From Mariprofundus sp. (GTDB lineage Bacteria; Pseudomonadota; Zetaproteobacteria; Mariprofundales; Mariprofundaceae), in the NCBI GenBank assembly GCA_030950555.1, contig JAUZRH010000186.1, forward strand, positions 1 to 35,500: 35,500 bases of DNA. The letters run 5' to 3'. The position numbers and the translations under genes were made by a program. The notes below the pieces were generated by a model. The model was not told where the DNA came from, made no database searches, and worked only from the letters and a program-made list of their open reading frames with translations. Positions 6,742-33,514 of the stretch are shown in pieces; the stretch's first letter is position 1; every line of letters begins with the position of its first letter.

Positions 6742-6803
6742 GCCAAGAGGCTGTCTCAGAATAGAGAGCGTAGCAAAGGAAAACGGAATTGTGTCGGATT
6801 TTT

Positions 6804-7020
6804 GACACCCTTCATTTTCCGGTTTACACATTAAGGCTTTCCTTAAGACGGAAAAGGCTTCGCCAAATAGTTGATCACCCTCACCCCAACCCTCTCCCTC
6901 AGGGAGAGGGGCTCAATAAAGAACACCCATGATTCATCCGGCTTATGGAAGATGAAGAGACATCTTTCAGCTGTGAGCTAACGTAAAACGTCAACTTTTT
7001 TAGAGTTGGTGAAGGATGCC
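6804..7020 (+). mobile_element. MITE copy 1 (217 bp, with probable 8-bp target duplication)
   Basis: A non-coding element bounded by inverted ends: GACACCCTTCA (6804-6814) on the left and TGAAGGATGCC (7010-7020) on the right. Ten bases on the left and eight on the right of the flanks resemble each other: GGATTTTT (6796-6803) against GGATTTTC (7021-7028), 7 of 8 identical, as expected of a target-site duplication. Inside are two blocks shared with the copies at 9788 and 33255: a palindromic CCTCACCCCAACCCTC...AGGGAGAGGG segment and a GGAAGATGAAG...GCTAACGTAAA segment. It lies 62 bases after rpoD and carries no coding sequence, so any transposase must act in trans. Confidence 0.7.
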
Positions 7021-7028
7021 GGATTTTC

Positions 7029-9787: not shown

Positions 9788-10175
9788 GGCATCCTTCACC
9801 AGCCATAAAAAAATGTCGCCGCTCTACACAACTAGCAGATGCCTATTTAGCTTCCGAGCCAATTTCAAAACTCATGAGTGGCGATCGGCGGCTCCACTTT
9901 GGCCCATTGCCGCGCTGGTGTTCGCTCCATGGAACCTCCATACACCTCATTCCACCTCAAAAATGGACTCAAAGTGAGATTGCCGCTCATCCACCCAGAG
10001 TTTTGCAATTGGCTCTTCCGTAAGTCGGATTATCCGGGGGCGTTTTTTTTGCACGCCGAAGCTCTTGCTCCCTCTCCCTCTGGGAGAGGGTTGGGGTGAG
10101 GGGATCAACTATTTGGCGAAGTCTTTTCCGTTGTAAGAAAAGCCTTCATGTGTAAACCGAAAATTGAAGGATGCC
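9788..10175 (-). mobile_element. MITE copy 2 (388 bp, longer, no clear target duplication)
   Basis: It has perfect 11-bp terminal inverted repeats: GGCATCCTTCA (9788-9798) and TGAAGGATGCC (10165-10175). The right half matches copies 1 and 3 closely: a CTCCCTCTGGGAGAGGG palindrome with GTTGGGGTGAGG, then CAACTATTTGGCGAAG, and a TGTGTAAACCG segment. The left end (through CATAAAAAA) and the piece CTTCCGTAAG (about 10017-10026) also match. Between those two pieces lie about 155 more bases than in copy 3, with no similarity to it. The flanks (TAGATATA and GGTTTTAG) do not form a convincing duplication. Two open frames inside (from 9748 and 9878) look like chance. Confidence 0.6.
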
Positions 10176-22132: not shown

Positions 22133-22420
22133 ACTCACCCCACTTTAGTGGCGGCAGCCTACAGCATTCCCCATCCAACTCCACCATTGCAGCGCATCAT
22201 AGTTGTCTGGGGGTGGGTCTTTAACCCCGCAGTTTTGATTTTTTCTACAGGATTAAAGTCGCCACGTGATAATTGAAACAGCATGCGTTCCCACGCAGGA
22301 GCGTGGGAACGAGAAACGCTCTTTTCCCCATCCCCAACAACAACATTCACGTATCAGAACTCGCTTGAGCAGCAGAGTAATGCTTTATTGATATAAGGGA
22401 CGATGGAGGAAAAAAAGGCA
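22133..22420. repeat. Intergenic region with REP-like palindrome
   Basis: No gene is supported; a 63-codon frame at 22159-22350 is chance. A 26-base palindrome at 22286-22311 (CGTTCCCACGC, then AGGA-type loop, GCGTGGGAACG) is an inverted copy of units at 26293-26318 and 26532-26557. A degenerate copy lies at 33130-33155. The promoter of the 22132 gene should lie here but was not found. Confidence 0.7.
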
Positions 22421-26175: not shown

Positions 26176-26863
26176 GATTATTTCCACACACCCACCAAAA
26201 TGCTAACTGATTACGCCAAAACTCAGCTCCTTGAGAATCACTTAGAGGAACGACACATAAATAAACATTCCATTGAGATGGGAATCCATTCTCGTTCCCA
26301 CGCTCCTGCGTGGGAACGCATATTGCTTTCAGAATCTAACAGAACGTTTTTTTAGATATGGATTCCCGATGCAACCTTCGGGAAGCAAGTGGCGGCGTTC
26401 CCGCTACGCGATAGGGTTAGACAAATAAACCGTTTCTCTTGGTTTGCCCTGTCATTCCCGTGAAGACGGGAAGCAAGTAGCGGCGTTCCCGCTACGCGAT
26501 AGGGTTAGATCGATAGAGCGTTTTATTTCCGCGTTCCCACGCTCCTGCGTGGGAACGCATTGCAGAGCGCTCTTTTTGATGTGGATTCCCGATTCAACCT
26601 TCGGGAATGACGGGCGGGGGGGATCACGGCTTGTTCCGCGCACCTCGACTATGACGTAAGCTGTTGTAATCATTGTTGTCCCGTCTTAAAAGGGAAACCG
26701 CCAAACAGTGCGTCTTGAATCCGAACGCTTATGGTTCGCAGTGTGGGATACTTATTTAGTACCGCAGCCCTAACATCTCTGCTTTACTTTGTATCTTGGT
26801 GCCTTTGTGGTGAGTAAGGTTTTCTTGTGTTTGGATCTCTTTCAACGGGTCACGACAGAGCTT
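26176..26863. repeat. Gene-free, palindrome-rich region
   Basis: No coding sequence is supported. It contains two copies of the CGTTCCCACGC...GCGTGGGAACG palindrome (26293-26318 and 26532-26557). A 43-base direct repeat starting CGGGAAGCAAGT and ending GCGATAGGGTTAGA occurs at 26379-26421 and 26467-26509, differing at one base. Several ATTCCCG...CGGGAA hairpins lie at about 26362-26384, 26454-26472 and 26584-26606. From about 26615 to 26863 nothing recognisable is seen. The units recur elsewhere in the window between genes and never within them. Confidence 0.75.
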
Positions 26864-33091: not shown

Positions 33092-33246
33092 CTGGCATAT
33101 AAACATGCAGAATCTGTCGCAGCCATATGCATTCCCACGCAGGAGCATGGGAACGAGAAGCAGAGCGTTTCAGATATGTATTCCCGATTAAACCTTCGGG
33201 AATGACGATCTGGAGTCTGATTGATTCGGGCAGCCTAAAAATAACC
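33092..33246. repeat. REP-like palindromes after the lipoprotein gene
   Basis: A degenerate copy of the CGTTCCCACGC palindrome family (about 33130-33155, ATTCCCACGC...GCATGGGAACG) and an ATTCCCG...CGGGAAT hairpin (33180-33203) follow the lipoprotein stop. No T-run terminator accompanies them. Confidence 0.6.
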
Positions 33247-33254
33247 CTATTTTA

Positions 33255-33483
33255 GGCATCCTTCACCAACTATAAAAAATAGTTAACGCTTTACGTTACC
33301 TCGCAGCTTAAAGATATCGCTTCATCTTCCGTAAGCCGTTTTAATCATGGCCGTTTTTTATTGCCCCCCTCACCCCAACCCTCTTCCTCCGGGAGAGGGT
33401 TGGGGTGAGGGGGGCAACTATTTGGCGAAGCCTTTTCCGTATGAAGGAAAGCCTTAATGTGTGAACCGGAAATGAAGCATGCC
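33255..33483 (-). mobile_element. MITE copy 3 (229 bp, with probable 8-bp target duplication)
   Basis: Bounded by GGCATCCTTCA (33255-33265) and TGAAGCATGCC (33473-33483), 10 of 11 complementary. Flanks are CTATTTTA (33247-33254) and CTATTTTT (33484-33491), 7 of 8 identical, as for a target-site duplication. It is the reverse orientation of copy 1 and contains both shared blocks in the same order. Its central palindrome is the most complete of the three: CCTCACCCCAACCCTC and GAGGGTTGGGGTGAGG arms. Non-coding. Confidence 0.75.
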
Positions 33484-33514
33484 CTATTTTTTTACAATCT
33501 ACTTACGACATGAC

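Follow-up and report, generated by a model that had tools for sequence, protein, structure and literature searches.

Results

Three mini-elements in the window

The window, meaning the whole stretch of 35,500 nucleotides analysed here, belongs to a 2.58-Mb draft genome of 316 contigs (G000), in which it is contig C97. It carries three intergenic elements that align with one another over their full length and are bounded by terminal inverted repeats (TIRs) of two types, termed R and L. The elements and associated features are as follows.

6796..6803, left target duplication of copy 1, GGATTTTT, 7/8 bases the same as 7021-7028
6804..7020, minus strand, MITE copy 1, 217 bp (direct reading, BLAST and alignment); R-type end at 6804-6814 (GACACCCTTCA, 2 mismatches), L-type end (B) at 7010-7020
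6878..6910, shorter form of the CCCTCACCCCAACCCTC-type internal palindrome in copy 1
7021..7028, right target duplication of copy 1, GGATTTTC (direct reading)
9788..10175, plus strand, MITE copy 2, 388 bp with the nested element included; L end at 9788-9798, R end at 10165-10175
9856..10015, 160-bp element of a different family nested in copy 2 (GAGCCAATTTCAAAACTC...GAGTTTTGCAATTGGCTC), with TTCC at 9852-9855 and 10016-10019 (direct reading)
33247..33254, left target duplication of copy 3, CTATTTTA, 7/8 identical to the right copy
33255..33483, plus strand, MITE copy 3, 229 bp; L end at 33255-33265, R end at 33473-33483
33361..33417, long internal hairpin of copy 3, CCCTCACCCCAACCCTC.../...GAGGGTTGGGGTGAGGG, with 27-bp arms, 96% complementary, and a 3-nt gap
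33484..33491, right target duplication of copy 3, CTATTTTT

These positions agree with the preliminary description of this DNA, as do the shared block order and the opposite orientations of copies 1 and 3; in the alignment, copy 1 is inverted relative to both copies 2 and 3. The claim that none of the elements encodes protein was likewise borne out: none of the window copies contains a plausible gene. The 11-base TIR GGCATCCTTCA is exact at four of the six element ends (7010-7020, 9788-9798, 10165-10175 and 33255-33265), and occurs with one mismatch at 33473-33483 and with two at 6804-6814. The 8-bp target duplications were absent from the preliminary description, even though its range of 6796-7028 spans one of them. 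No such duplication is left in the checked flanks of copy 2. The extra length of copy 2 is accounted for by a different inverted-repeat element of 160 bp, which has inserted at 9856-10015; without this nested element the copy has the usual length of the family. Elements of the family span 105-390 bp and lack a transposase gene, and the predicted folding of the whole element has a z of -8.1.

Copy number and end types

The window genome contains well over a hundred copies of this short, gene-less mobile element. With copy 3 as the BLAST query, 87 matches were obtained in that genome, and the 11-base TIR with at most one mismatch occurs at 348 sites in the 2.58-Mb draft, compared to 6 for a reversed-pattern control. 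The earlier count of three copies in 27 kb is correct for the window but a large undercount for the genome; the preliminary description had the kind of element right and erred in scale alone. Many contigs of the draft stop near TIR sites, which is expected from a short-read assembly.

The ends found in the window genome fall into three kinds, A (GGCATCCTTCATATAACCCCAAAAGTAGTTGACAC), B (GGCATCCTTCACCAACTATAAAAAATAGTTAACGC) and C (GGCATCCTTCATTTTCCGGTTTACACATTAAGGC). Types A and B, with a TTRAC motif 28 nt in, make up the L type, and type C, with TTTACAC 19 nt in, is the R type. The usual unit, B...C, is ~228 bp, lengthened to ~290 bp where there is a doubled central palindrome. In about 33 copies, an additional 100-bp A module lies outside B and provides a second L end. 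For A-B...C composites on contigs C1, C29, C67 and C93, it is the outer A and C ends that the 8-bp duplication borders, so A can serve as the working L end instead of B. Rfam covariance models at their gathering score gave no match to the element.

Evidence for transposition

The interpretation of these repeats as MITEs survived the refutation test set out in the preliminary description, as similarity ends at the TIRs and does not extend beyond them. Of the 29 complete copies sampled from the window genome, 8 carry a perfect 8-bp target duplication and 10 have one that matches at 7 or more of 8 bases, with 0.6 expected from shuffles; fully identical flanks occur at length 8 and at hardly any other length. 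In addition, empty sites were identified for the copy at C200:11272-11491. When its flanks are joined with a single copy of the duplication GCTTTCGG, they align without gaps across the junction to two element-free places in the same genome, on contigs C191 and C99. A copy from Desulfamplus (L289:14175-14302) has repeat-borne empty sites in L300 and L307. These empty sites are paralogous, being element-free copies of a repeat elsewhere in the genome, and only inspected alignments were relied on, as some junction-spanning matches are artefacts of adjacent copies (e.g. C1). Transposition is well supported because exact 8-bp duplications occur together with repeat-borne unfilled target sites. With TIRs that bound the similarity, a fixed 8-bp duplication, a paralogous empty site and no internal transposase gene, all three elements are identified as copies of a MITE, a non-autonomous DNA transposon.

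Distribution and conserved asymmetry of the ends

The MITE unit is present in none of 22 sampled genomes of the same genus, where the few matches involve nothing but the internal palindrome. Used as query, the A end matches over its terminal 38-45 bp in other genera of Mariprofundaceae. The window genome is placed in this family by inference, as G062 and G068, which share its family, correspond to two records named Mariprofundaceae (L264 and L220, respectively). The A-end pattern was found at 59 loci across Mariprofundaceae MAGs, Desulfobulbaceae, Desulfobacteraceae, Desulfamplus, the Bathymodiolus puteoserpentis methanotrophic symbiont and an unclassified Pseudomonadota MAG. In Desulfamplus magnetovallimortis (Desulfobacterota), there are 272 exact GGCATCCTTCAT sites compared to 1 for the control, most sampled copies are 105-106 bp, and the 8-bp duplication is exact in 35 of 47; there too, identical flanks are almost always 8 bp long. 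The distribution is thus patchy, absent from 22 congeners and present in other genera and phyla, and the family appears to have spread horizontally.

The two ends are asymmetric in the same way across lineages. The TTKACAC motif starts ~19 nt from the R end and ~28 nt from the L end, and these offsets (19,28) hold for 40/47, 12/13, 16/16 and 7/7 elements in four groups. The consensus ends agree between lineages, but the interiors differ, each lineage having its own palindrome. Within the DNA that was read, the palindromes mostly adjoin these ends, with 74 in the window genome lying within 300 bp of a TIR and 6 elsewhere; as the DNA examined was chosen around the ends, this proximity is no more than suggestive.

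Other repeats nearby

Several further repeats were observed alongside this first family. The nested element in copy 2 represents a second MITE-like family of ~160 bp with ends GAGCCAATTKCAAAACTC/GAGTTTTGCAATTGGCTC, seen at 9856-10015 in the window, on contigs C178, C187 and C205, and at locus L405; it has inserted repeatedly into the first family and shows a 4-bp duplication, TTCC, in the window copy. A third family, with ends AGGGCCACGGAAAGAATAAA/TTTATTCTTTCCGYGGCCCT, is very abundant and often nested in the first (C155, C249, C217, C187 and many other contigs of the window genome). The fourth, GTAACTACTCAGCACC...CTGAGTAGTTAC, is common to the window genome (C22, C23, C31, C56, C64 and C286) and another Mariprofundaceae genus (L198, L206 and L212); it starts with GTAA, and in that respect its sequence appears IS66-like. 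The palindrome GTTCCCACGCWSSWGCGTGGGAAC has stand-alone copies in the window at 22283-22316, 26289-26328, 26527-26560 and 33121-33159, and a similar palindrome lies inside the first family in related Mariprofundaceae MAGs. At L093:1240-1410 (contig C84 of the window genome), an inverted repeat, GGGGTCATGTCTTGCAAT...ATTGCAAGACCTGACCCC, adjoins a type A end of the first family.

A candidate autonomous partner

The preliminary description attributed movement to an unidentified transposase. This has been improved in part, as a plausible partner gene occurs in pieces in another phylum, although no intact copy was found. In Desulfamplus sp. nS315bin3 (G107), an ORF at L396:2163-2675 begins 150 nt inward of an R end and is preceded by a GGAGG-type ribosome site; this R-end ORF, on contig C133, encodes 171 residues with weak helix-turn-helix similarity and runs to the contig end. 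On contigs C88 and C279 of the same genome, the 3′ part of a gene precedes an L end, and its product ends in a transposase-like manner (SSAMVECINSIIRPYLN...FYHNHRRYRSGER). These two gene parts, L397:376-801 and L353:116-649, stop ~115-125 nt inside their L ends and share 77% identity with each other. Because the R end precedes the N-terminal ORF and the L ends follow the 3′ part of the gene, the polarity of the partner is R at the 5′ side and L at the 3′ side. As the N-terminal and C-terminal pieces are on separate contigs, and the L-end gene copy on C279 is interrupted by an ISAs1 element, we can only infer that the pieces belong to one gene.

Neither the R-end nor the L-end pieces are recognised by any transposase model of Pfam or NCBIfam, which sets them apart from ISL3, IS256, IS1595 and IS30, in a comparison whose sensitivity is limited because the pieces are partial; they also match no solved structure. 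A structure model of the C-terminal piece was discarded at a mean pLDDT of 37. Relatives of the pieces were found neither in plasmid, phage and viral collections nor in the portion of the window genome examined, approximately one third, and no intact autonomous copy was recovered. By our own reading of its residue pattern, as opposed to a database result, the partner would be a DDE enzyme. The autonomous partner of the MITE family is probably an unclassified DDE-type IS.

Other leads to a transposase were followed and rejected. The identical interiors at the contig ends of C23 and C286 are a different nested element, the GTAACTACTCAGCACC...CTGAGTAGTTAC family, and not an autonomous IS. A TIR at a contig end followed by a ribosome-site-like stretch (L241; contig C41 of G109) was considered as an IS edge, and no further copy of it was found. 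A solo R-type end, GGCATCCTTCATATCCTGATTGACACTTT, on contig C107 of the window genome (L406, minus strand, outer base ~2153 from the locus start) lies directly upstream of an nhaD-like antiporter gene and was rejected as a transposase lead; it is possibly a decayed copy that supplies a promoter element.

Discussion

Our analysis supports with good confidence an overall explanation in which the window elements are non-autonomous MITEs with R and L ends and 8-bp duplications, mobilised by an IS partner. The MITE would move by cut-and-paste or a similar DDE mechanism, with the transposase acting in trans on two non-identical ends. The R end consists of GGCATCCTTCAT, 6 nt and GTTKACAC, and the L end of GGCATCCTTCAT, 15 nt and GTTKACAC. 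Insertion takes place into A+T-rich DNA, with 8 bp duplicated, and the interior is free to vary; in the window genome it holds the CCCTCACCCCAACCCTC palindrome and, in some copies, the 100-bp module with a second L end. The partner would be an IS with a transposase gene oriented from R (5′) to L (3′), as the pieces in the Desulfamplus MAG suggest, and this IS or an unassembled homologue may have mobilised the copies in the window genome. What was observed, and what the scheme builds on, are the repeats with their ends and 8-bp duplications, the empty sites, the high copy number and the occurrence of the ends in other lineages.

The identity of the mobilising enzyme admits alternatives. The partner transposase could belong to the IS30 family, given that an unusual GGCATCCTTCAAATTCTGTTGACA end at C155:411 in the window genome lies near an IS30-like fragment, matched by NF033563 at C155:3-197 with an E of 1.6e-7. 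This match does not reach the curated cut-off and spans 66 of the 267 positions, and another MITE, of the third family, sits between the end and the gene fragment (C155:3-411). IS30 elements duplicate 2-3 bp, compared to the 8 bp found here, and the gene pieces flanked by both end types in the Desulfamplus MAG have no IS30 match, which together make an IS30 partner very improbable. A better, albeit still unlikely, candidate is an enzyme of some other known IS family, such as ISL3, IS256, IS1595 or similar, that was missed in draft assemblies. These families have GG-starting ends and 8-bp duplications, both compatible with the elements here, and draft assemblies lose multi-copy repeats. Against this, the window genome gave no match to the profiles of ISL3 or IS1595. 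Searches of genomes bearing the MITE family, which covered ISL3 (12 genomes) and IS256 (14 genomes), returned few elements, and those examined lack the MITE TIR. From these profile searches, which for IS1595 covered the window genome, and from these TIR-lacking elements, ISL3, IS1595 and IS256 were rejected as partners.

A different kind of explanation sees the repeat as a REP/BIME-type palindromic repeat or a structured RNA that is spread otherwise, rather than as a transposon. The strong hairpin (z = -8.1) and the occurrence of the internal palindrome alone in other genomes would fit such an origin. The defined TIRs, 8-bp duplications, gap-free empty sites and lack of an Rfam match contradict it, as does the conservation of the ends from one phylum to another alongside differing palindromes. 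We regard this explanation as already refuted for the whole element and give it almost no credence, although the internal palindrome may be a REP-type passenger repeat.

Prokaryotic type II MITEs resemble IS in their terminal repeats only (PMC10969869). Like them, the family described here is short, non-coding, intergenic and high in copy number, with TIRs, target duplications and an internal hairpin, and similarity between lineages is found only at the ends. It differs in that its parental IS is apparently of no recognised family, and in that its ends are asymmetric, conserved and common to Zetaproteobacteria, Gammaproteobacteria and Desulfobacterota. In its size range, size variability and copy-number class, the family is similar to Chunjie of Geobacter uraniireducens (178-235 bp; reviewed in PMC10969869), a likeness of description and not of sequence. 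The hupL MITE of Ca. Thiomargarita nelsonii, with 19-bp inverted repeats and 10-bp direct repeats (PMC4853749), is also a high-copy element of an environmental bacterium with no ISfinder parent; its 10-bp repeats, compared to 8 bp here, set it apart by description rather than by sequence. QMITE1 and QMITE2 of Coxiella burnetii are high-copy MITEs with truncated REP-like derivatives (PMC5896051, PMC10969869), features shared with the family here, and belong to another host; this comparison too is descriptive and not sequence-based.

The earlier view that the family is undescribed fits what could be checked, as there is no Rfam match and the TIR and palindrome have no relevant match in open-access full text. 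The family is apparently undescribed, a provisional status because ISfinder and most subscription papers were outside this scope. As a MITE it is an ordinary kind of element, set off by its cross-phylum asymmetric end pair and apparently unclassified partner. A broader proposal, which we offer tentatively and consider possible rather than likely, is that the ends define a previously unclassified DDE IS family. Its mini-elements would have entered two or more phyla and reached very high copy numbers there, shuttling lineage-specific palindromes while the ends stayed constant.

That Mariprofundaceae, Desulfobacterota and gammaproteobacterial genomes have this end pair in common suggests a phylum-crossing mobile system that is unrecognised by the profile libraries of routine annotation. 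The MITE family helps to explain assembly fragmentation in the MAGs that bear it. It may also explain the abundance of certain palindromes in environmental bacteria, as most sampled copies adjoin MITE ends in these hosts.
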